Assembly (NCBI GenBank): GCA_030550115.1
Contig: JAUQPY010000031.1
Span: 1-41,174 of the forward strand
DNA length: 41,174 bases
Reading direction: 5' to 3'
DNA from: Microcaldota archaeon
GTDB taxonomy: Archaea; Micrarchaeota; Micrarchaeia; Anstonellales; J096
The position numbers and the translations under genes are program-made. Positions within the stretch are counted from its first letter, which is position 1, and each line of letters begins with the position of its first letter. The notes under the pieces were generated by a model. It was not told the DNA's origin, did no database searches, and saw only the letters and a list, made by a program, of their open reading frames with translations. Positions 16,809-41,174 of this stretch are shown here, in pieces.

Positions 16809-17097
16809 GATTAACATCCCTGGATTTGATAATGAGATTGATTTTGAGAAAGAGGATATCTCAGTAAGAATTAAAATATACACAGAAACTTCAAAATTCA
16901 ATAAACTAGTTACAGTGATTTCTGGAGTAGGCAAGAAAAATTTAGAGGAGGTAGCAAAGTTTCTGAAGAAAAAATTGGCGTGTGGTGGTACTATCAGAGA
17001 TGATGGGGCGATAGTATTACAAGGAGATCATAAAAAGAGAGTACCTGGATTGCTGAAAGAATTCGGTTACAAAGAGGAACAGTTTGAATTATTGTAA
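16801..17097 (+). CDS. Translation initiation factor aIF1 (SUI1 family), TTG start
   Basis: FNKLVTVISGVGKKNLEEVAKFLKKKLACGGTIRDDGAIVLQGDHKKRVPGLLKEFGY. Confidence 0.95.
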   Translation: MAKINIPGFDNEIDFEKEDISVRIKIYTETSKFNKLVTVISGVGKKNLEEVAKFLKKKLACGGTIRDDGAIVLQGDHKKRVPGLLKEFGYKEEQFELL

Positions 17098-18912
17098 TTT
17101 ATAAACATACAGAGATCTGTTCTGATAAATAAGTTTGTAATTATCATCTATTTTAATTCTTTCATAGTTCCTATAATCAATTATGTAAATTCTAAATGTT
17201 TTGATATAGAATTCTCTTATAGCAGGGTCTAACCAACCATCTGCGGTTATATATGAAATTCTATTTGCATCTAATTCAGATTTACATTCTAAACAGATCA
17301 GAGGATCTCTTATGTATTGTCTGTATTCGTACCTAGATAAGTGTTTTATATTGGGTATTATCGAACTGAATTCTGATGCGATGAATCCATTCAGATCAAT
17401 AACTATGTATTTTACTCTGTATTTGTTCAATAACTCCTGTGCTAGACTGCGATTTGATGAATATAACATAATAGCAGCGTCTAAATCTCTATTTGAGAAA
17501 TTAAGAAATGGTAAGTGGAATGATTGGGCCCATCTACTTGCTACAACATTGTTTCCCGTGTATGCATTTAGAGCAAAGGCAATAGGTTTATTACTAAGTA
17601 TTACACCTGGATCCTCAGATATTATCCTAATAGCTTCTGCGTATTCTGGAAAGAGATCTGTTAGGGTTAGGTTGTATTTCTTCAAATTTGTAAAGCTGCT
17701 TGTATAAGATTCATACGTAAAGTGGAGCTGTGCTAAGATGAATAATCCTAATAACATACCATATTCTGATTTTCTGTAGGGTATTGATAGCAAAATTAAG
17801 GGTGTTAATACTAGTGAAGTTGTGTAGGTAGGTACGGTATTGAATAGGAATAGATCTAGAATAGGAGATATTAATATTAGAATCGATGTGAGAATTATAT
17901 ATTGGTCAAATTCGTACAATCTCCTATCCTTGAATAGGCTATATAAATACGCCACGATGATCAATATCTTCGGCATCATCCATTCCGGAATATATTTTGT
18001 GTATAGAAACAACATACCCTCAGAATTGGAATACACTGGAAAATCCAATCTGTTTCTAGGAAAGTATTCGTTGAATATATCTAGTCTGTATATCATATAC
18101 AAACCTAGAGGTAATAGCAATAGGATTGGTATTATATCTTTGAATATATTATTTAATCTCTCCTGATTCATTAATCTACGGATGATATCGTATGAAATAA
18201 ATATTAATACATATAGTAGTAGTAGAAAGTGGGATATTGTTGATAGTAGAATAGCTAAAGCGTAATTACGTTTTAATATCAAATACAATACTATTGGACT
18301 GATAATAGATACGGCAAATTCAGTGTATTTTAGTATTACTGGAGTTAGAGACGATGCAACTATAAATACTAACATAGCCACTCCGTAGGATGCTCCTAAT
18401 CTCAAACTGATGTAATACCATATGATAGTTGAATATAATAAGATAGAAGATAGGAGTTTCATAGCTGAAATGCCATCGATATTCATCAATCTCATTGTGA
18501 TTACAACTAACCAGGAGTAGAGTGGGTTATAGGAGAACAATTTTCCCTCGTAATATTGGTTTCCAAAAATATCCAGAGTCCTGTTTACATAATTTATCTG
18601 CCCCAACTGAGCATAGTAATCCCCACCGAATACTGGTGAAGGGAGCTCCTTGAAAGATAGGAGAAATTGATATGAACTAGAGGAAAGAATAGAAGCTATT
18701 ACAAATACAATCCCTGTAAATAACCCTGGGATAAGATTGGATGACTTATAAGAATATATTCCGAGAGTAACTATTGATATAATGATACTTGGATTCAAAT
18801 AGAATATATCATAAATATTGATTGAATTGAAATATAATAAACCTAATGCATTGATGATTATAGATATTACTCCAATCTTTTCCAGATCTGTCCATCGAAG
18901 TATTCTATCCAT
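17089..18912 (-). CDS. Polytopic membrane protein, putative GT-C-fold glycosyltransferase/oligosaccharyltransferase-like
   Basis: 607 aa, about 10+ hydrophobic segments, N-terminal extracytoplasmic loop FGGDYYAQLGQINYVNR, soluble C-terminal domain. Confidence 0.6.
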   Translation of the reverse strand: MDRILRWTDLEKIGVISIIINALGLLYFNSINIYDIFYLNPSIIISIVTLGIYSYKSSNLIPGLFTGIVFVIASILSSSSYQFLLSFKELPSPVFGGDYYAQLGQINYVNRTLDIFGNQYYEGKLFSYNPLYSWLVVITMRLMNIDGISAMKLLSSILLYSTIIWYYISLRLGASYGVAMLVFIVASSLTPVILKYTEFAVSIISPIVLYLILKRNYALAILLSTISHFLLLLYVLIFISYDIIRRLMNQERLNNIFKDIIPILLLLPLGLYMIYRLDIFNEYFPRNRLDFPVYSNSEGMLFLYTKYIPEWMMPKILIIVAYLYSLFKDRRLYEFDQYIILTSILILISPILDLFLFNTVPTYTTSLVLTPLILLSIPYRKSEYGMLLGLFILAQLHFTYESYTSSFTNLKKYNLTLTDLFPEYAEAIRIISEDPGVILSNKPIAFALNAYTGNNVVASRWAQSFHLPFLNFSNRDLDAAIMLYSSNRSLAQELLNKYRVKYIVIDLNGFIASEFSSIIPNIKHLSRYEYRQYIRDPLICLECKSELDANRISYITADGWLDPAIREFYIKTFRIYIIDYRNYERIKIDDNYKLIYQNRSLYVYKLQ

Positions 18913-19883
18913 TTCTCATGGATCACCATTAATATACGATTGGGTTCTTTAGCACATGTTGGTGAATTACACACTATGTATTTTCCACCTAGATCACCAA
19001 GAGTTATTCCTGTAAGAGGATCTACCACATATCCCCAGGTGAGATTCTGATATGATTGGACTGGGATAGATGATATTGCGACACCACAATGTCCAGATTT
19101 TTCTGTGTTAAAACATACTACTACAAAATCATACTCACTAACTTTTGCAAATAGCTGAGGCGTGTATCCTCTTAAAATCACATCTCGATATACTATATAA
19201 TTATAATATGGTGTATCCAGAATGCTCACCGGTCTTGTCCCCTCTAGATACATATTTGGATTCAATGATCGTAATAGTTCTCTCAACATCAATGCATGCT
19301 GTTTACAATCTCCATATCCTTGTTCAATAAACTTTTTCAAGGTATGAAACTCTGATATCCTATTATTATAACCATACTCCATTCTGGTAACATAGACTGC
19401 ACATGGTATCTTTAGATTAAAGCCATCACTACATTCTCTTAGAATTTTGGATCTAAGATAGGGGTCAGGATATTCTGAGTTCTCTCTAAACCATTGTGAG
19501 AGATTTTTAAATATTAACCACTCTTCCTGCTTACTGTGATTTTTCATAATCTCCTCCATAATCTTTAGAGTAGAATTCACCTGTAAGCTCAGGTTGTTAT
19601 ATTTTTGAAGTAGCTCCTGATATTCCATTTCCAATTTCTCCTTCTCATTACTTAATTCTGAATACTGATTAGATAGATTTTTGATTATCTCTGATGCTAA
19701 GAGATTTTGAGACTTTTCCTGTGCTAATTTATCCTGAAGTGAATTTATAGTTATGTAAAGTTCTGTTATTGTAGTATTATATTCATCTCTGATTGAGTCG
19801 ATAGTTGTTAAGTGTAAATAAACAACAGATATAATCGCAGATACCAAGATTGCTATGATTAAGTATATTGACTGATAGTTCAT
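18867..19883 (-). CDS. Membrane-anchored coiled-coil protein with transglutaminase-like (papain-like fold) domain
   Basis: N-terminal TM, coiled coil, then GYGDCKQHALMLRELLRSLN ... GHCGVAIS ... YVVDPLTG consistent with a Cys-His-Asp triad. Confidence 0.75.
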   Translation of the reverse strand: MNYQSIYLIIAILVSAIISVVYLHLTTIDSIRDEYNTTITELYITINSLQDKLAQEKSQNLLASEIIKNLSNQYSELSNEKEKLEMEYQELLQKYNNLSLQVNSTLKIMEEIMKNHSKQEEWLIFKNLSQWFRENSEYPDPYLRSKILRECSDGFNLKIPCAVYVTRMEYGYNNRISEFHTLKKFIEQGYGDCKQHALMLRELLRSLNPNMYLEGTRPVSILDTPYYNYIVYRDVILRGYTPQLFAKVSEYDFVVVCFNTEKSGHCGVAISSIPVQSYQNLTWGYVVDPLTGITLGDLGGKYIVCNSPTCAKEPNRILMVIHEKWIEYFDGQIWKRLE

Positions 19884-27776: not shown

Positions 27777-28847
27777 ATGTCTAAAATTCGAATTGATTTA
27801 AATGTAAAGTTAGATAATAGAACAGATCTTGCAGAGCATTATACTCCTGGTGTTGGTAAGATTGTGGAGATCCTAAGCCAGGACCCCAATAGATCCTTCG
27901 ATCTAACTTATAGAGGGGATTTTGTATCGATATTATCAAATGGTAGCTCTGTTCTTGGATATGGTGATTTGGGTCCAATACCTATGATGCCTGTTCTCGA
28001 AGGCAAGTCATTGATTCTTAAGAGATTCGGGAGAGTGAATCCAGTACCAATCGCAATTAGAGGTACATACAGAGATATATATGATGTTGCTATGAAAATT
28101 CAGGATAATTATTCATTGATAATGATAGAAGATGTGAAAGGTCCTGATTGTATAGAACTTCATGAGATGTTGAACAGAGATTTGCAGATTCCTGTATTCA
28201 ATGATGATATGTTTGGAAGTACTATTGCAGTTCTATCTATACTGAAAAGGGCTTTACTCAGATTGAATAAATCTAATCCTAGAGTGGTCTTATTAGGAGC
28301 AGGTGCAGCTGGATTAACTGTTGCAAAATACATAAGATTAATAGGTGTTAGAGATGTGGTGGTATTTGATTCCAAGGGCTCTCTTAATGAAAACAGAGAG
28401 GATCTGAATAAGTATAAGTTAGAAATAGCTAAGATGTATAAAGTTCCTGAAATATCTCTAAATGAGGCACTCACTGGAGCAGATGTATTCATAGGATTCT
28501 CCAAAGGAAATATCTTAAATCGTTCCCATATTGATATGATGAATAATGATGCAATAGTATTTGCTCTAGCCAATCCAATACCAGAAATAGGCGAAGAAGA
28601 GGCTAAATCGTCTAAAAAGATCGGTGTATATGCAAATGGGAGGAGTGATAATAGGAATCAGATAAACAATGCATTAGTATTTCCATCTGTAGTATCATAC
28701 ATGGCTCTTAAACAGATTAAGTTGGATGACAAATTGATAACCAGAGCTATTGATGCTATAACCTCCTATAACGCTTCTACCTTAGTTCCAGATATATTCG
28801 ATTTGAGGTTTCATAATTATCTGTTTGATCAGCTCATTAACAAGTAA
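27777..28847 (+). CDS. Malic enzyme family NAD(P)-dependent dehydrogenase (divergent active-site loop)
   Basis: AEHYTPGVGKIVEI, VLGYGDLGPIPMMPVLEGKSLILKRFG, LIMIEDVKGPDCIEL, IPVFNDDMFGSTIAVL, VVLLGAGAAGLTVAKYI, GRSDNRNQINNALVFPS. Confidence 0.88.
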   Translation: MSKIRIDLNVKLDNRTDLAEHYTPGVGKIVEILSQDPNRSFDLTYRGDFVSILSNGSSVLGYGDLGPIPMMPVLEGKSLILKRFGRVNPVPIAIRGTYRDIYDVAMKIQDNYSLIMIEDVKGPDCIELHEMLNRDLQIPVFNDDMFGSTIAVLSILKRALLRLNKSNPRVVLLGAGAAGLTVAKYIRLIGVRDVVVFDSKGSLNENREDLNKYKLEIAKMYKVPEISLNEALTGADVFIGFSKGNILNRSHIDMMNNDAIVFALANPIPEIGEEEAKSSKKIGVYANGRSDNRNQINNALVFPSVVSYMALKQIKLDDKLITRAIDAITSYNASTLVPDIFDLRFHNYLFDQLINK

Positions 28848-30456
28848 ATATATATTCATTCTCCCTGTCTTTTATTACATAACCCAATCTATTTAGATAG
28901 AGTCGATCATTGTTGTAATATTTATCCGATATAACACCTTCGATGATTTCCATGGAATTAGGATTGAGCTCTTCTTCCCCTAAAAACAGTTCTCTGGGAA
29001 TTTTTACTCTTATGGTTTGAGGTTTCTCCACCCAATCTGTGACTGGTAATTGATTATCGGAAGGATAGCTTACAAAAACACCATTAATGTTCTTGACAAC
29101 TCCTAAACCTCTGAGATTCAGAATATCAGAATATTCTTTTTCATCAATATAGAGAGTCCCTTCCCAGAGAAATCTCTCCCCTTCTCTTTCTACTACTATC
29201 CTTGTAGATATCATCTTTGGATTCTTTATGAATGGAATTTTAGGGATATCTTTCATTTTCCTATCCATTATTTCTCGATTTATATTTAGCAACATATCCC
29301 AACCTACTTCGGTCTCCTGCTTACCTGGACCGAATCTAGATATGAACTCTTTTATAGCTGCGGGCAGTATCCCTCTTCTTCTAAGAGCCCTAACCGTAGT
29401 TAGTCTAGGATCATCCCAACCATCTACTATTCCCCTCTCTACAAGTTCTCTAATTTTTCTCTTAGATGTAACACTACCTCTAATCTCCAATCTGGAGAAA
29501 TGTATCAGGATTATATCCCTCAGTCCTAAATCTCTTAAGATAGAATGATAAAGCTCAGTTCTTAGTTCATACTCTTTGGATCTTAAAGCATGAGATACCA
29601 TCTGAATACTATCTAGAATAGGTGTGGCAAAATCGTAAGTTGGCCAGAATTTATACTTGGTCTTGTGTCTATAATGTGGGTGATTCACCACTCGGAACAT
29701 GGTTGGATCCCTCATAACAGTATTACTTGATGTCAGATCACCTTTATATAGTGCAACAATCTCCCCCTCGTCATAATCTCCATTAACAGCTGCTCTGAAC
29801 ATTTCTAGATTCTCCTCTACACTATTATTTCTTTCTGATACGGGAATCCCCTCCTTTCTCATTTTAGATATTTCCTCCTGACTAGCTAGGGTGAGATACA
29901 TTTTATCTGCAGCTATCAATTTCTCCGCATATTTATACAGAACATCCATATAATCTGAGGAATGTGTGACGTCTGAAAATTTGATCTTTAGCCACTCTAA
30001 ATCTTCTATCATAGCTCTTTCAAACTCTTCAGATACTTTCTCCGGATTAGTATCATCAAATCTTAATATCAATTTCCCAGAATACTTTTCTAGGTAGAAT
30101 GTGTTTAGAAAAACAGATTTACAATGTCCTATATGCATATATCCTGAGGGTTCAGGGGCAAATCTTAGTACTATATAGCTAGGATCGTTAGGTAATAAGT
30201 ATCTCTTCTCATCTCTCACATACTCCTGGTAATTATATTGAGCTAGCTCTTTCTCCGCCTCTCCTAGATCCATGTTGTTAACAGAATTAATTATGTTATT
30301 AAGTATTGGTATGATCTCTTTTACTCTTGTTTTTAGCTCTGGATGTTCATATAGAACCCAACTCACCGTAGATTTAAGATCAGCTTTACCATAATCTATT
30401 CTATTCTTGAGCGCCTGTTTTCTAAAATCATTATAATACCTCTCTAAATCATCCAT
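28837..30456 (-). CDS. gltX: Glutamyl-tRNA synthetase, archaeal type
   Basis: RFAPEPSGYMHIGHCKSVFLNTFYLEKYSGKLILRFDDTNPEKVSEEFE; VTSKRKIRELVERGIVDGWDDPRLTTVRALRRRG. Confidence 0.95.
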   Translation of the reverse strand: MDDLERYYNDFRKQALKNRIDYGKADLKSTVSWVLYEHPELKTRVKEIIPILNNIINSVNNMDLGEAEKELAQYNYQEYVRDEKRYLLPNDPSYIVLRFAPEPSGYMHIGHCKSVFLNTFYLEKYSGKLILRFDDTNPEKVSEEFERAMIEDLEWLKIKFSDVTHSSDYMDVLYKYAEKLIAADKMYLTLASQEEISKMRKEGIPVSERNNSVEENLEMFRAAVNGDYDEGEIVALYKGDLTSSNTVMRDPTMFRVVNHPHYRHKTKYKFWPTYDFATPILDSIQMVSHALRSKEYELRTELYHSILRDLGLRDIILIHFSRLEIRGSVTSKRKIRELVERGIVDGWDDPRLTTVRALRRRGILPAAIKEFISRFGPGKQETEVGWDMLLNINREIMDRKMKDIPKIPFIKNPKMISTRIVVEREGERFLWEGTLYIDEKEYSDILNLRGLGVVKNINGVFVSYPSDNQLPVTDWVEKPQTIRVKIPRELFLGEEELNPNSMEIIEGVISDKYYNNDRLYLNRLGYVIKDRENEYIFTC

Positions 30457-30478: not shown

Positions 30479-31306
30479 TTAAAAGTTCAACTCTTCATAG
30501 ATCCTGTTCTTCTCCTCTTTGGGAAGTGCTACTAGGGAGAATATAAGGAGCTTGGATAGATACAAAGCCTGTTCAGTATCGTAGAAAGCCAGTAATCCGA
30601 GGTAAGTACTCTTGATCAATTCTATTAATTTCTGTTTATTTTCTTCTATTTTAGTCTGTATTGCAGGTAAATTTGTTCTATTGATAAGTTTTCTGAGTTC
30701 AATAATTTTCCTATCTAAATAGAATATCTCTAAAAATTTCTCTCTTATGGATTTGGGTAATAGCATAGGATTATAACCTAATGGAAAACTGTAGCTGCCC
30801 AACAGATATTCTATTATTTCTGGCTTATATTCGATATTGTTCTCTAGTGCAAATACAACTGCCTGCATTTTCATTATCCTATCCACTACATCATCGCTAT
30901 AATTGATAGCTCTGTCCACCATACCCTGAATAGCAGATTTCTCAACAACAGTCCCTTTGGATCTGAAGTAATCGTATATTAGATAAACTATCGGATCGTA
31001 TTCCCCCTGCGAATATGGTTTTATGTTATGTATTAGGATCTCTATGTATTCTTTCAATTCTGGACTCTGATTAATACGTTCTAGAAGTTGATTTGCCTCC
31101 TGTATGGTTAATCTTAGCTCTACAAGGATCTGAATTGCCTTTTTTATGTATTCATCATCCAGATGTCTCTGAAAAAGTTTGATATATATGATAGCTAGTG
31201 ATAACTTATCCTCATCAGATAGATGTTTAGCTTTTCTGAATGCATATTCTGCTAACTGTACATACCCATTTGCATATAATACTTTTGCAGCGATATTATA
31301 TATCAT
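30479..31306 (-). CDS. Helical-repeat (TPR-like) protein, 275 aa
   Basis: AAKVLYANGYVQLAEYAFRKAKHLSDEDKLSLAIIYIKLFQRH; 4-nt ATGA overlap with the Rad50-like gene. Confidence 0.65.
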   Translation of the reverse strand: MIYNIAAKVLYANGYVQLAEYAFRKAKHLSDEDKLSLAIIYIKLFQRHLDDEYIKKAIQILVELRLTIQEANQLLERINQSPELKEYIEILIHNIKPYSQGEYDPIVYLIYDYFRSKGTVVEKSAIQGMVDRAINYSDDVVDRIMKMQAVVFALENNIEYKPEIIEYLLGSYSFPLGYNPMLLPKSIREKFLEIFYLDRKIIELRKLINRTNLPAIQTKIEENKQKLIELIKSTYLGLLAFYDTEQALYLSKLLIFSLVALPKEEKNRIYEELNF

Positions 31307-33555
31307 AACAATACTTTACTATAATTTACAGATCCATCCTTGCTCTTTTCTCTGAATACTTGGATAACCTGATTCCACATCACATTATTCTTTAATCTAT
31401 CATCATGTGTTATTATTATAAATTGATCTATATGATCTAAACTCAGTCTATTGATATTGTCTACAAGATTATCTATTGAAGAATCATCTAGATTATGGGT
31501 TGGTTCATCTAGTATTATAACTCTTAATCTCCTAGTGATCAGATTCAGAATGGCCAGTCTCAATGATAGAGCATAAATAGTTTTCTCCCCTCCACTCAAT
31601 CGATCAGCGGAAACCTCATTATCTCCTATGGAGATCTTCAATTCATATCCATCAGATTTATCTACAGCTATCTTTGGATCATTGTAAACTACACCTGCGT
31701 AAAGAGAATTCCAGAATAGACCCATACCTAGATTGATGTTCTGTATATATACTTGTCTATTTTTCGTCTGTAGATCTGAAATTCTATTCTTTATCTCCTC
31801 TAATTCTTTCTGCAAAGCTCTTAATATCTCCACACGCTCTATTTTCCTTTTCATATCTTCAATATCTCTCTCCAGTATCTCTATAGACTTCTGGAACTCT
31901 TTGCTCTGATTAGTTAGTAGGTTTATTTCTGATTTAGTACGTTTTATAGCCTCTTGTAATTCTACATATCTTTTAGACCATTCTCTGTATATTTTATCGT
32001 TTATCTCTAGTGATTTGAGTGTTTGATCTATCGATTCTAAGTTTTTAACAAAATTTTCCAACTCCTGCCTCAACTCTAATAATCTTTTCTGATCTTTCTT
32101 ATAAGATTCTATATTTCCAAGTGCTCTAGATATCTGGTCTCTGCGTCTCTCCAATTCTTTACCATAATCAGAAGGGATTTTACTCATGATATCTTTAAGT
32201 TGTTCGGAGACACTATTCTTATCATTCTTCAATTTCTCCAACTCTTGCTCCAGAACATTTAACTCATTCCGGATAGAACTGATCTCGGCTTCAATCCTTT
32301 TGGTATCATTATTAACTCTTTCTAATTCATTACTCCATCTACTCTTCTGTTCATTGTACTTAATATGAAGATATAATGCTGCTATCCCAAAAACTATAGC
32401 AGGTAATAAGGCAAGATTTATTACAAATATCCCAATTCCAAGAGCACCCATAGCTAAAATTAAAGCTATTATAAAAGTTAAATTTGAGGGTTTGGACCTG
32501 TTCAGTTGTTCCAACTCCTTTCTTAATGTATCTAATTCAAGATTACGCTCCTGCAAGGTTCTATACAAATCTTCTCTATTTCTAAATACACTATCGTACT
32601 TCTGATTGAGCTGATTCTGCAGATCATTCAATTTCATCGATTGATCTGTATATAACCTAAACTGCTCAATCTCCTTCTCTAGCTGCAATCGTTTCTCTTC
32701 TAATACTTCTGGATCCTCTAACTGAGTATTGCTGATTATCTGTTGCAATTTTTTAATATCCTGATTTAACCTATCTATCTTGGTTTCAGTTGCTATTTTT
32801 TTATCTCTGTATTGAATATATGTATTGTATTTCTGTTCTATTGTTTCCTTCTGTTTAGTCATACTCTCATAATCATTCTGCAATGATCTGAATTGTGAGT
32901 TCAACTCCTCTATTCTGGAGAGAGTGGTTTGATATCCTGATTTGAGTCTCTCCAATTCTTTCTGCTTAGTTCTATAACCATCCAAATCAATCTCCGTCTG
33001 CTTTATCTGATCTTTGATCCTATTTATTATCTTAGTTATCTTATCTATTCTATCCTGTATCTCTTCTATTCCCAATACTCTATCTATATTTAGCTTTAGC
33101 TCTTTAGGAGGCATGTTTATTAGCTGATATATATTGTCTTGAGCTCCATAGAATACATTACCAAATAATCTTTCGTCTATATTCAGAACCCGAGTAATAT
33201 GTTTTAGTATTTCATCATCATTTTCAGATATAAGATTTGAGTTATAATATAGCGCAGATCTACTCGGCTTATCTCTATATAAATTCCTAACGATTCTGAA
33301 ATTCTTCCCATCAACAGAAAACTCAATCTCTACCTTTGCAGACTTCTCCCCATCTCGTATGAAATTCCTCCTATTCTGCTTATTAATCCCTCTGTAACTA
33401 GTCTTTACTTCACCGAATAGAGCAAACACAATTCCTTCTACAATACTAGTCTTCCCAGAACCATTCTTACCATGAATTAATATCTTACCATGTCTAAAGG
33501 AGATCTGTGTATCTCGATGAGACATCCAATTCTGCAGTATTAATTTTTGTATCAT
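31303..33555 (-). CDS. Rad50/SMC-like coiled-coil ATPase with mid-protein transmembrane hairpin and no zinc hook
   Basis: Walker A IHGKNGSGKTSI, Q-loop region YGAQDNIYQLINMPP, signature LSGGEK, Walker B LRVIILDEPTHNLDD, H-loop ITHDD; residues about 360-398 FIIALILAMGALGIGIFVINLALLPAIVFGIAALYLHI; no Cys in 750 aa. Confidence 0.93.
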   Translation of the reverse strand: MIQKLILQNWMSHRDTQISFRHGKILIHGKNGSGKTSIVEGIVFALFGEVKTSYRGINKQNRRNFIRDGEKSAKVEIEFSVDGKNFRIVRNLYRDKPSRSALYYNSNLISENDDEILKHITRVLNIDERLFGNVFYGAQDNIYQLINMPPKELKLNIDRVLGIEEIQDRIDKITKIINRIKDQIKQTEIDLDGYRTKQKELERLKSGYQTTLSRIEELNSQFRSLQNDYESMTKQKETIEQKYNTYIQYRDKKIATETKIDRLNQDIKKLQQIISNTQLEDPEVLEEKRLQLEKEIEQFRLYTDQSMKLNDLQNQLNQKYDSVFRNREDLYRTLQERNLELDTLRKELEQLNRSKPSNLTFIIALILAMGALGIGIFVINLALLPAIVFGIAALYLHIKYNEQKSRWSNELERVNNDTKRIEAEISSIRNELNVLEQELEKLKNDKNSVSEQLKDIMSKIPSDYGKELERRRDQISRALGNIESYKKDQKRLLELRQELENFVKNLESIDQTLKSLEINDKIYREWSKRYVELQEAIKRTKSEINLLTNQSKEFQKSIEILERDIEDMKRKIERVEILRALQKELEEIKNRISDLQTKNRQVYIQNINLGMGLFWNSLYAGVVYNDPKIAVDKSDGYELKISIGDNEVSADRLSGGEKTIYALSLRLAILNLITRRLRVIILDEPTHNLDDSSIDNLVDNINRLSLDHIDQFIIITHDDRLKNNVMWNQVIQVFREKSKDGSVNYSKVLL

Positions 33556-34289
33556 ATTTTTCTAATTGATAGAGAAAACTTATTAAAATATAAATTAGCC
33601 CCTAGAATCACAAGGAATGGTACTATTATAAATATGTTTATTATCAACATTATAATTCTAACAATATCCAATGGAAATACTAGACCAAATATGAAGATTA
33701 GAATTAGATTTATTATCAAGCCTATAGCAGAATACATAATAGGATAGATTGCTAGCTCTTTTCTAAAAATATATAGTTTCCTAATTGCTCTATCAAAATC
33801 GACTTCTTCTATAACAATAGCGTATGGTATAAATAGGAATATATAGCTGATTAGGAAGAATATTATAGAGAGTATCATCGGATCCCATGCATTTACATAC
33901 CATAACACTGAGAGATTGAACTGTATCAGAAACCAGATTATAAATATCTTATAAACCTCTGGAAAACTAGAGGTGATGTTTTTTATAAACACACTTGGAT
34001 ATATTCTATCGGCTCTGTATTCTTTGGTAGCTACTGTTAATATAATCAGAGATAGGGTATAGAGTGCAATAACGATCAGAAAAGAGAATAGTGCAAATAT
34101 GAACTCGAGTAGATTTATTTCAGTTATCTTAGATATACGCAGGAATATTCCTGTAACTGAAATATATATGTAATCTTGAAAGGTCAATATTAGAATACCC
34201 GTGACTATAAGTATAACAAATCCTAATAATATGATCAGATCATACGCCTGTTTAAATATCTCTATACTACTTTTAATCTCAAATATCAT
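33552..34289 (-). CDS. Polytopic membrane protein (about 245 aa); start probably ATG at 34289
   Basis: About 6 hydrophobic segments; 4-nt ATGA overlap with the Rad50-like gene; the tracked start 34361 would run through the opposite PDO gene promoter and start. Confidence 0.75.
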   Translation of the reverse strand: MIFEIKSSIEIFKQAYDLIILLGFVILIVTGILILTFQDYIYISVTGIFLRISKITEINLLEFIFALFSFLIVIALYTLSLIILTVATKEYRADRIYPSVFIKNITSSFPEVYKIFIIWFLIQFNLSVLWYVNAWDPMILSIIFFLISYIFLFIPYAIVIEEVDFDRAIRKLYIFRKELAIYPIMYSAIGLIINLILIFIFGLVFPLDIVRIIMLIINIFIIVPFLVILGANLYFNKFSLSIRKI

Positions 34290-36780: not shown

Positions 36781-38319
36781 ATGGGAATTATTGATATCAT
36801 AACCAGAAATCTATTAATACTGGCTCTAGGTCTGGGGATCGGCCTAGCTATAGCTGTTTTGATATACTTCTACAATCTTATATTCAAGAAAGATCAGGCC
36901 AAATCCTTGGATGCAGTTAAAGATGTTATTATAGTTGTTTTCTATCTGATATTACTATTTGCAATTGATCTTGCGTATAATCTATTCCTATCGGCATGGT
37001 TAGGTATCCCTGTGGGTCCGGGTGATAATCTGAGGATTGCTGAGGCAGTAATCTACAAGGATATCGATAAATTCAGGGAGACTTTGATGTATATATACGT
37101 AGCAGATTTTGTGATTAATCTCTTTGGATCATTTTCAGCACATCTACATGCAGCAATAAATCCGGAGATGACCAAGTTGCAAGGAGTGTCTGTTCTAAAT
37201 AGAGTAATGGAAGGTATGACTTCATTATTACAAAAGGCTAGTTTGGATCCTTACAAAGCAGAGATGGGTATTGATTATTTCTATAAGATGAATTCTGTAA
37301 TACAACTGCTCTACAATGCCTCATATGGTCTGTTCCTAGTTCTTGTATATAAATATATCAAACTCACAGTTATAACTTACTTACCTCTAATTATGTCTAT
37401 CTTTATTCCTTTAGGTCTAGTTCTGATATTCATACCTATTACTAGAAAGGTAGGAATGACTATTGTTGGGTTGGCAGTAACACTTTACTATCTCTTCCCA
37501 GTGTTTATAATATACTCAGACACTGTTCTTAGGAATATGCCTGATTTTGATCACAGATATATTTCAGCTTATATCTCTCCTACCATAGTAGAATTTTTGG
37601 ATAAGAGTTCAGGATCTAATCCTGCCACAAGAGCAGGTTATAAGTACGCATTTATAGAGAGAGAAAAGGCAATACAGAAATCTCTGGATTACGTATTCCT
37701 AGAACAAGATAGGAGCAATATTATGGAGCCTGATCAGAACAATCCTGTGGGGAAGCTGGAGAAAGAAGGAGTAGGTGTGTTTCATATATATTCATTCGTA
37801 GATGCACAATCAGTATGTGACCCAGGGACCAATGACAGAGAAGTTTGTAGAGAATATCAAACAGCTAACATAGGTGACTACAGATCAGAGAATGTATTAG
37901 CTCCTCTTGGATCTCTGTATGCAAATACAGTAAAATACTCTGCAATAGTTAGAGTAGGAACAGCTATAAAACAGGTTATATCCACAGCATCCATAGTATC
38001 ATCTCTAAATCCATTTGCAGTTGCAATGATAAATATACTTGGAATGGCTGTTAATATGTTCCTGTTTGCAATCCAAATAACTCAGGTTTTACCTATCCCT
38101 GGATTGAGCCAAATCCTATATGGAGCTCTAAATATTCCATTCTTACCATTCCTAATGTTTAGAACTGCATTAGAAGCAGCATTGATAGCTTACAAGATAA
38201 TTATATATGGATCTATAACTATCTTTTTAGATATCTTTCTAATTATCACCGGATATAGAGCAGTAGCATCTGTAATTGGAGCTGAGCAGAGAATACTAGG
38301 TTTGGAGAGGGTGCTGTAG
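36781..38319 (+). CDS. Polytopic membrane protein 1 of array (VirB6/TrbL-like core?)
   Basis: 512 aa, many TM segments, core FIPLGLVLIFIPITRKVGMTIVGLAVTLYYLFPVFII; external-type loop with two Cys; leaderless start after tttttaaaaag. Confidence 0.85.
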   Translation: MGIIDIITRNLLILALGLGIGLAIAVLIYFYNLIFKKDQAKSLDAVKDVIIVVFYLILLFAIDLAYNLFLSAWLGIPVGPGDNLRIAEAVIYKDIDKFRETLMYIYVADFVINLFGSFSAHLHAAINPEMTKLQGVSVLNRVMEGMTSLLQKASLDPYKAEMGIDYFYKMNSVIQLLYNASYGLFLVLVYKYIKLTVITYLPLIMSIFIPLGLVLIFIPITRKVGMTIVGLAVTLYYLFPVFIIYSDTVLRNMPDFDHRYISAYISPTIVEFLDKSSGSNPATRAGYKYAFIEREKAIQKSLDYVFLEQDRSNIMEPDQNNPVGKLEKEGVGVFHIYSFVDAQSVCDPGTNDREVCREYQTANIGDYRSENVLAPLGSLYANTVKYSAIVRVGTAIKQVISTASIVSSLNPFAVAMINILGMAVNMFLFAIQITQVLPIPGLSQILYGALNIPFLPFLMFRTALEAALIAYKIIIYGSITIFLDIFLIITGYRAVASVIGAEQRILGLERVL

Positions 38320-38320
38320 A

Positions 38321-39394
38321 ATGTTGTCGATCATAGATAGTTTTGTTGTAGCGTTGGTAATGATAGTTGCTGGATATATATTGTTACTATTTGTCATGGC
38401 TAGACTTAGTAGTAACGAAGAGTGGAAACAGAATTTCAAGATAGAGTTGCAACAGCTACTATTGAGTTTGCTATTACTAATAGGTGTATACGCGATAGCA
38501 GGTTTTGTTACTATGATCTATCAATACTATACAGGTGGATTGGATGCATTCAACTATCTATCCATTCAACTAATATCCATAATGAAAAACTTACACTTCT
38601 ATGCATCTCATCTAACTCTTTCAGCATCTCTAATGAGAATGTTCGGAGAGTTTACAAATATAGGTTATCCGCATGGTTCTTATGGATCAGCTAGATTACC
38701 TACTACTCCTGGTGTAGATCTGTTAGCATCAGTTACTTTTCAGATCAGAGATCTGCTTATGATAGCTACAGGTGGTTTGGTTATGCAATCTATACTTTTT
38801 GATCTTATAAAGAATCTAGCACTTACTGTAGTATTGCCTATAGGGATTGTTTTGAGAATCTTGCCAATCACTCGACAATTTGGAAATGAACTGATCGGCC
38901 TGAGTGTTTCATCATATATAATATTACCTATTATTTATTTGGTTTTCTTCCAAACCATCCAAGAAGTTGCTAATGAGAGAGGAGGGTTTATAGAGAGGTT
39001 TGTTGATGGATATCTTGCAATAGGTGACACTAGATTGATAGAGCCAGATAAGATAATCGTTGATATACAGAAAGATCACCAGACCAGTATTCAGGACAGT
39101 ATGGATAGATTGAACAACTATTTTGATAGATATAAATCAGAGATTGATTCAGAAGTAATGGGAAGTACTGCTGATGAGCATAGGCTCTACAGATTCTTTG
39201 AAACCTATTTAACTACTGGATTGATATTAGGATTTCTAAATGTAGGATTTCCCATATCATTTCTATTTCTTTACTCCTTATTGCTATATGCCTCAGGATT
39301 CTTAGTATTTGGATTTGGATTACCAGGATTTGCCATAGCAATAACACTGACAGCTGCTAAGAGTATTAGAGATTCTCTGGAGAGATTGGTATGA
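38321..39394 (+). CDS. Polytopic membrane protein 2 of array (same core)
   Basis: 357 aa, VVLPIGIVLRILPITRQFGNELIGLSVSSYIILPIIYLVF. Confidence 0.85.
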   Translation: MLSIIDSFVVALVMIVAGYILLLFVMARLSSNEEWKQNFKIELQQLLLSLLLLIGVYAIAGFVTMIYQYYTGGLDAFNYLSIQLISIMKNLHFYASHLTLSASLMRMFGEFTNIGYPHGSYGSARLPTTPGVDLLASVTFQIRDLLMIATGGLVMQSILFDLIKNLALTVVLPIGIVLRILPITRQFGNELIGLSVSSYIILPIIYLVFFQTIQEVANERGGFIERFVDGYLAIGDTRLIEPDKIIVDIQKDHQTSIQDSMDRLNNYFDRYKSEIDSEVMGSTADEHRLYRFFETYLTTGLILGFLNVGFPISFLFLYSLLLYASGFLVFGFGLPGFAIAITLTAAKSIRDSLERLV

Positions 39395-40578
39395 ACCCAA
39401 TTATAGATGCAGTTGCCCCTATTATAGGGATATCAATTTTAATATACATAATAGCTTATCTCGTTGGGAGAATTCTGAACAAACCTGATATACCTGCCTT
39501 TATCAACATGGAACTCTTATCTCTTATAATTTTCATAGCTCTACTGGTAGTGTTGTTGTATATGTTGGATTTTGCAGTTGATATAACTATATCGAATCTT
39601 AATCCTGATGCAAAATCTGAAGTATGTGATAAATATGGAATATCTATATCAAGATGTCATGTTGCTATAGCAGGATATTTTCTGGAGAGCGTACTTAGGG
39701 AACTTACAGATTATTATATACAGTTAAATGCAGTTCTTCTAACTACTAATTTTGTAAAACAGACTTATTCTGTGAAAGCAATTCAGGGAGATAAATTCGT
39801 AAAGCTAAACATGAATCCATTTATATTCGTACCCTCACTGTACATAGAACCTATAATCGGATTGGTTCAGACGATGTTGCAGTTCGCTATAGCCCAGTTC
39901 ATTGTTCTTTGGTATATCACATCTCCGCAGTTTTTCATAGGTTTCTTGACTTTAGGAATTGTTCTTAGATTATTTGCTGTAACCAAATCGGCTGGTGGAT
40001 TGATAATAGCTCTAGTTATAGGTTTATATTATGTATTCCCAATGGCATATGTTCTGATAGATGTACACTACAGATATTCATATCCTGGTACTTATGGGTT
40101 TGATAAGATAAATACCTATAGAGTTACTGATCATCTCCTATCTACATTTGGAATTCCATTTGGAGATCGATTGGATGCGGCCATAAATGCCATACTGAAT
40201 GTAGAGAGTAAACCTATTGATCCTAATGATCCAGATTCAGTAGTTAGTAGTTTGGGTGCTGCTCTCAGTAACATGGCTAGCATAGCTAAAGCGATTATAA
40301 AGATTGCTACTGTATTAGGTGCCATGCTATCAGTATATACCCTCTCATTTTTACCGCCTGTAGCTATAGGATATACTCTTGTAGGAGATGCTGTTCCAGA
40401 TATAATGAGTAGTATTATTAATATGCCTATTATTCTATTAAACATCTACACTGAATTTTTTATAATATTTGCAGTACTGATATACATATCTCTAATAAGC
40501 ACTGTGGCATTTGTTAAAACACTATCCCCAATATTAGGTGGTGACGTTGAAATTGCTGGTATTACTCGTTTTATATAG
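39391..40578 (+). CDS. Polytopic membrane protein 3 of array (same core)
   Basis: 395 aa, FLTLGIVLRLFAVTKSAGGLIIALVIGLYYVFPMAYVLID; 4-nt overlap with previous gene. Confidence 0.85.
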   Translation: MNPIIDAVAPIIGISILIYIIAYLVGRILNKPDIPAFINMELLSLIIFIALLVVLLYMLDFAVDITISNLNPDAKSEVCDKYGISISRCHVAIAGYFLESVLRELTDYYIQLNAVLLTTNFVKQTYSVKAIQGDKFVKLNMNPFIFVPSLYIEPIIGLVQTMLQFAIAQFIVLWYITSPQFFIGFLTLGIVLRLFAVTKSAGGLIIALVIGLYYVFPMAYVLIDVHYRYSYPGTYGFDKINTYRVTDHLLSTFGIPFGDRLDAAINAILNVESKPIDPNDPDSVVSSLGAALSNMASIAKAIIKIATVLGAMLSVYTLSFLPPVAIGYTLVGDAVPDIMSSIINMPIILLNIYTEFFIIFAVLIYISLISTVAFVKTLSPILGGDVEIAGITRFI

Positions 40579-41174
40579 TATCCTATCATTAGCCTCCTCA
40601 TGTGACGATGGGGGGTTTATTAGTCAGGAGTGTATTGAGAGAGATATTTATGGTAAGTTTGATGAGAATCTTGTATATAATGGATTTAAAAAGGTGTTTT
40701 TAGATGCGAGAAATACTGCTCTAAATATGTTAGACAATCTAATCGTAAATGTGATAGGTCCTTATACATTCTGTAAAAGCACTAATCCTGTAGATGTGTC
40801 CAATCTTTTGAATACAGTCGGAATAATAGTATTCATATCACTACTTCTCATATACATTCTAAATGCTATTGCATCTATCTTTGGATTACAATGGAGAATA
40901 TCTCTGTTGGATGAGGCATTTCAGGCTCTATTAACCATATTAGTAGTAATACTGATAGTAGGGGTTATTAATTACTATACTTATAATAATATATTCATTC
41001 AGGCAAAACAGTATGTAGTTAATATAATTATAAATTTCTCCTTCTTCTCCATGTTGCTCAAGACTATTGAAACTATGTTAGTAGCTCTATCGAATATTAC
41101 AATCCCATTTGGTCCTCCAGATGCTAGAGGAATTTTTGGAGTATCATTCTCCCAATTATTCACAATAGTATTCA
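40547..41174 (+). CDS. Membrane protein 4 of array, partial (runs off window), TTG start, signal-peptide-like N-terminus
   Basis: Not in ORF track. Frame open to window end: (M)KLLVLLVLYSILSLASSCDDGGFISQECIERDIYGKFDENLVYNGFKK...NTVGIIVFISLLLIYILNAIASIFGLQWRISLLDEAFQALLTILVVILIVGVINYY; SD-like ggtggtga upstream. Confidence 0.75.
   Translation, partial: MKLLVLLVLYSILSLASSCDDGGFISQECIERDIYGKFDENLVYNGFKKVFLDARNTALNMLDNLIVNVIGPYTFCKSTNPVDVSNLLNTVGIIVFISLLLIYILNAIASIFGLQWRISLLDEAFQALLTILVVILIVGVINYYTYNNIFIQAKQYVVNIIINFSFFSMLLKTIETMLVALSNITIPFGPPDARGIFGVSFSQLFTIVF

Follow-up and report, generated by a model that had tools for sequence, protein, structure and literature searches.

A Rad50 of the Candidatus Micrarchaeota carries an uncharged hydrophobic hairpin at the point where its relatives carry the zinc hook and, as far as comparison of the genes tells, the hook was exchanged for the hairpin in situ, once, inside one genus. 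The zinc hook normally joins the two Rad50 arms, and its role is still debated between a constitutive dimer clamp, an opening gate and a bridge between complexes. We consider it probable that the protein described here is a membrane-anchored Rad50 whose hook has been replaced by the hairpin and which would still work with Mre11. Its gene lies in the window, by which we mean the whole stretch of 41,174 nucleotides that was analyzed, and which comes from a Candidatus Micrarchaeota MAG (G000) of 575 kb that is 84% complete.

The first-pass annotation had described the 750-aa ORF as a Rad50/SMC-like ATPase with head motifs at both ends, and motifs, profiles and PDB matches all agree with that description. 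The bipartite ABC head is complete in the sequence and in the AF2 model, with a long coiled coil splitting its motifs (Table 1). In profile searches the top NCBIfam match is archaeal Rad50 (195 bits), followed by arcadin-4 (Rkd4; 107 bits), SMC (98 bits) and ASRP (83 bits); the closest PDB structures are archaeal Rad50 heads, and in Foldseek two chains from the Mre11-Rad50-Nbs1 complex of Chaetomium match the model best. Both sequence and fold are nearer to Rad50 than to SMC, ASRP or arcadin-4. Heads, signature, arm length and apex position are the same as in archaeal Rad50 (NCBIfam NF003034/PRK03918, Pfam AAA_23), which also occurs once per genome with Mre11 present, as in the genomes with the hairpin. 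None of the NCBIfam full-length cut-offs is passed, however, and as the one for Rad50 is 700 bits, the name Rad50 rests on the summed evidence. What the protein lacks is CxxC: the hydrophobic hairpin occupies the position that the CPxC zinc hook has in archaeal Rad50. Since this hook was lost inside an orthologous lineage, we regard the protein as a Rad50 ortholog of variant form and not as a standard Rad50, and judged by its sequence the ORF is a bona fide Rad50.

Table 1. Features of the rad50 locus, in coordinates of the window
Feature	Residues	Position	Strand	Basis
rad50 with hydrophobic apex, 750 aa, ATG start		31303..33555	(-)	profile searches, PDB and fold match
Walker A, GKNGSGKTS	29-37	33445..33471	(-)	motif
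Coiled-coil arm 1	about 163-353	32497..33069	(-)	AF2
Apex, uncharged hydrophobic hairpin at the CPxC zinc-hook position	356-398	32362..32490	(-)	alignment, hydropathy, AF2
Coiled-coil arm 2	about 399-618	31702..32361	(-)	AF2
ABC signature, LSGGEK	653-658	31582..31599	(-)	motif
Walker B, RVIILDEPTHNLDD	678-691	31483..31524	(-)	motif
H-loop, THDD	716-719	31399..31410	(-)	motif
F3, 245-aa polytopic membrane protein, overlaps rad50 by ATGA		33552..34289	(-)	
F16, 275-aa helical TPR-like protein, overlaps rad50 end, genus-only		30479..31306	(-)	
Class I glutamyl/glutaminyl-tRNA synthetase, last gene of run		28837..30456	(-)	

It had further been noted that the protein contains no cysteine, so that a CxxC hook is impossible. 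The cysteine count is indeed zero, and both orthologs with the hairpin are without CxxC too. Given the cysteine content of the window, a count of zero is expected by chance at about 0.6%, and the absence of cysteine is on its own weak evidence for loss of the hook. The alignment bears on the claimed replacement directly: the hydrophobic stretch lies on the CPVC columns of the hook forms, the distance from Walker A to the apex is 348-354 residues in hairpin forms compared to 342-360 in hook forms, and the spacing from apex to signature is similar between the two. The location first given, 32356-32484 or residues 358-400, needs a small correction to residues 356-398. These 43 positions (PSNLTFIIALILAMGALGIGIFVINLALLPAIVFGIAALYLHI) include none that is charged, and a charge-free run of at least 43 residues arose in none of 2000 shuffled versions of the protein. 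The highest Kyte-Doolittle mean over 19 residues reaches 2.86, compared to -0.31 to 1.45 for the middle thirds of 46 hook-type relatives. The 15-residue flanks hold 8 positive and 6 negative residues, a net positive charge. Approximate insertion energies favor two short helices in the apex. The AF2 model (3 input sequences, mean pLDDT 75.9, pTM 0.43) shows helices at residues 359-373 and from 377 onward, joined by a turn at 374-376, at the coiled-coil tip with pLDDT about 50. A location inside a soluble globular domain, which would have spoken against a membrane hairpin, is not what this model gives; it places the stretch, at low confidence, in a hairpin at the tip.

Taken by its sequence, the apex is a probable transmembrane helical hairpin. 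The two membrane passes originally proposed are plausible for the window protein, but the uncharged stretch of 43 residues here is 35 residues long in each of the two orthologs, in which a hairpin making two full crossings would have to be short or shallow. These short stretches, together with a weak model of the apex and a transmembrane call made by hydropathy, would count against membrane insertion. Among the three hairpin Rad50s the apex is 26-45% identical with its hydrophobicity kept, and the heads are 52-61% identical; an apex that has diverged yet stayed hydrophobic, next to heads that are more alike, is as expected if only the greasiness of the apex is selected.

The genus was sampled with five genomes (G000 to G004), and the two types of apex are divided among them: the hydrophobic apex without CxxC is present in G000, G002 and G003, and CPVC in G001 and G004. 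In 5/5 of these genomes the rad50 start codon overlaps the stop codon of one and the same membrane-protein gene, F3 (in G004 the F3 end and the rad50 start are both at 249), and this shared overlap indicates that the forms with hook and with hairpin are orthologs by position. In a tree of the heads the Rad50s of the genus group together (100/100), with the hairpin forms in one clade (100/99) beside the two hook-bearing members; as the outgroups bear hooks, this indicates a single loss of the hook and a single gain of the hairpin. The length of both stems suggests that the Rad50 heads also changed quickly. Paralogy of the two forms is ruled out by the shared overlap and the tree. A second Rad50, hook-bearing or other, was not found in the three hairpin genomes, each of which encodes a single Rad50 together with a distinct SMC (about 1020-1050 aa). 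It is from positional orthology, the tree, the single Rad50 seen and the retention of Mre11 and SMC that the exchange is read as having occurred in situ. Close homologs with CxxC at the apex had been named in advance as evidence against the proposal, and G001 and G004 literally provide them, but they strengthen the case instead, because hooks at the same place mean that the exchange took place between orthologs within one genus.

Among the other Micrarchaeota Rad50s that could be read, the hook is constant. A Rad50-family match is present in nearly all of 59 related genomes, and in the sample of the order 46/46 hook-type Rad50s (G001 and G004 included) have CPxC and no TM-like stretch in the middle third; a class-level sample adds 68 Rad50s, all with CPxC, one fragment that stops before the apex (L210) being left out of the count. 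CPxC is therefore found at the apex of 114/114 readable mid-regions of other Micrarchaeota Rad50s compared to 0/3 hairpin forms, so that the view of a hairpin in place of the hook is upheld. In some Micrarchaeota families Rad50 is longer, at 874-896 aa, and its hook lies near residue 450, which means longer arms (L167, L176, L192, L195, L204). The relatives that share the apex are the Candidatus Micrarchaeota MAGs SKYB44 and S1_Bin_METABAT__336_1; GTDB r220 contigs held no hairpin Rad50 beyond these two known orthologs, and searches of plasmid and of phage collections gave no close relative and no match reaching 80% coverage of the query. All genomes compared are MAGs, which raises the question of an assembly artefact or a chimeric ORF; we consider this explanation negligible, as the hairpin form is seen in three independent MAGs, on contigs that were assembled separately yet agree in gene order, with apices that have diverged and are still equally hydrophobic, and with a frame that is open throughout.

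F3 has no Pfam match, belongs to a family found in 54/59 genomes of the order at a single locus per genome, and adjoins rad50 in 5/5 genomes of the genus and nowhere outside the genus among the neighborhoods read. As support for a membrane role it is neutral, since it is linked to rad50 in hook genomes too and the family is order-wide. F16 stands directly behind rad50 in hairpin genomes only, but is probably unrelated to Rad50 and was rejected as a hairpin-specific partner: in G001 it stands directly before gltX, and the G004 contig end holds the start of gltX, which suggests that F16 belongs with gltX. Its identity between hairpin genomes is 67-68% although that of Rad50 is 37-39%. Behind the hook-type rad50 of G004 (L056:2561-4116) lies a tandem pair of related proteins, 240 and 274 aa long, which is absent behind the hairpin type. 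Elsewhere in the window, a run of four polytopic membrane-protein genes (36781-41174, (+); 512, 357, 395 and at least 212 aa) has no Pfam match for the first three, contains two paralogs and keeps its order in G002 (L054) and G003 (L053), and at 17089-19883 (-) a 607-aa protein with 6 TM segments and no Pfam match has as its neighbor a 338-aa protein with a single TM segment.

A surface or defense sensor had been suggested as one role for the protein, and Rad50-like ATPases do occur in conflict systems. The gene, however, shares a run of housekeeping genes with a tRNA synthetase, encodes the one Rad50 found in its genome and occupies the ordinary rad50 locus of the genus as positional ortholog of the normal gene. 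Nothing that we saw hints at defense, and we therefore abandon this suggestion as very improbable.

Mre11 is encoded apart from rad50, on another contig in G000 (G000:C21) and with a gene order common to the three hairpin genomes, and its D-x-H, GD, GNH, H and GHxH residues are intact in 3/3 of them (in G000, D8, H10, D44, N76, H77, H152, H180 and H182). The C-terminal part of Mre11 has diverged in the hairpin clade. NurA was not detected in the hairpin-clade genomes, nor in the hook genome G001; its absence thus says nothing about the apex, but it leaves the repair context of the hairpin Rad50 uncertain. One could take the distant mre11 locus and its diverged C-terminal part, the missing NurA, and the long stems and diverged heads of the genus to mean that a membrane-anchored Rad50 no longer repairs breaks with Mre11 and instead has the task, at the membrane, of tethering or segregating the chromosome. 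We think this quite unlikely, as the catalytic motifs of Rad50 are all retained, the Mre11 active-site residues are intact and the hairpin protein is the sole Rad50 detected; moreover, rad50 and mre11 are also apart in the hook-bearing relatives examined, so their distance is no sign of uncoupling.

A hydrophobic apex in a Rad50-like ATPase is not confined to this genus. Bacterial YhaN-type proteins had been cited as a precedent for TM segments, and the precedent holds: in six readable PF13514 (AAA_27) proteins from a bacterial sample, a double hydrophobic segment lies about 410-500 residues after Walker A in 5/6, CxxC is absent from the part read and a gene for an Mre11-like metallophosphoesterase is directly upstream in 6/6. 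The window protein is similar in being a Rad50-like ATPase without CxxC and with a hydrophobic apex mid-protein. It differs in having 750 aa compared to about 1030-1190 aa, and in having the membrane protein F3 upstream in place of an Mre11-like protein. Membership of the YhaN type was rejected, as PF13514 scores only 16.6 bits (cut-off 22), mre11 is not adjacent and the protein falls outside the YhaN-type clade, whose heads are separate (100/99, in a tree with long branches). The separate heads and the same kind of apex indicate that a hairpin apex arose at least twice in Mre11-Rad50-like systems, a recurrence that lowers the novelty of our finding but supports the mechanism. Membership of the ASRPs (ClsN/Sph), which are likewise SMC-like archaeal ATPases, was rejected as well on the match to NF045487, far below its cut-off of 300 bits; ASRPs mostly retain the zinc hook (PMC9389158), which the window Rad50 is without. 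In the openly accessible literature, searched without the main ABC ATPase classification paper, a report of a membrane-anchored Rad50 was not found.

The hook of fission yeast Rad50 can be replaced by the SMC (MukB) hinge with full function, whereas a Cys-to-Gly hook fails, which identifies the hook as a stable dimerization module (PMC6969161) and indicates that an exchange of the apex is tolerable if dimerization is kept. This parallels our case in that the hook is swapped and function, here probably, kept, but the hinge was engineered and is soluble, and is not a membrane hairpin. In a soluble alternative, two hydrophobic hairpins pack as a four-helix bundle that replaces zinc pairing and does not enter the membrane. 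Such a module would retain stable dimerization of the arms, which is what the hook is known to provide (PMC6969161), and would fit the helical hairpin that AF2 gives at the tip and the stretch of only 35 residues in 2/3 hairpin Rad50s. We nevertheless hold it unlikely, because a bundle needs a polar outside whereas no charge occurs over 35-43 positions, and because the YhaN-type proteins carry the same kind of apex.

A charge-free hairpin with positive flanks would most simply sit in the membrane. In the arrangement we favor, a membrane-anchored Rad50 still working with Mre11, the ATPase heads and arms would be cytoplasmic, with positive residues on either side of the hairpin, and the hairpin would enter the membrane where the arms, of about 190 residues or about 28 nm by helix geometry, end away from the heads. 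Two protomers would pair in the membrane plane via their hairpins, or be held close by confinement, with no Zn-Cys4 bridge; the hairpins may in this way replace zinc-mediated dimerization. DNA ends would then be bound and processed close to the membrane by the heads and the separately encoded Mre11. In its fullest form the proposal is that a complete Mre11-Rad50 machine is membrane-anchored by its apex, that the hook is naturally dispensable, that hairpins took over dimerization, that double-strand breaks are handled at the membrane, and that the exchange happened once within the genus, independently of the YhaN type; for all of this together we can argue only tentatively.

The finding matters first as a natural swap of the hook for an apex that cannot bind zinc, one that has lasted alongside conserved heads. 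With matched Rad50s from one genus, some with the hook and some without, hook function can be compared directly, and together with the YhaN-type proteins they suggest that the design recurs and is more than a curiosity. Our data suggest that the break-repair machine is membrane-anchored in a small group of Micrarchaeota, and if the hairpin is membrane-inserted, these cells, whose genomes are very small, would provide a case of break repair linked to the membrane.
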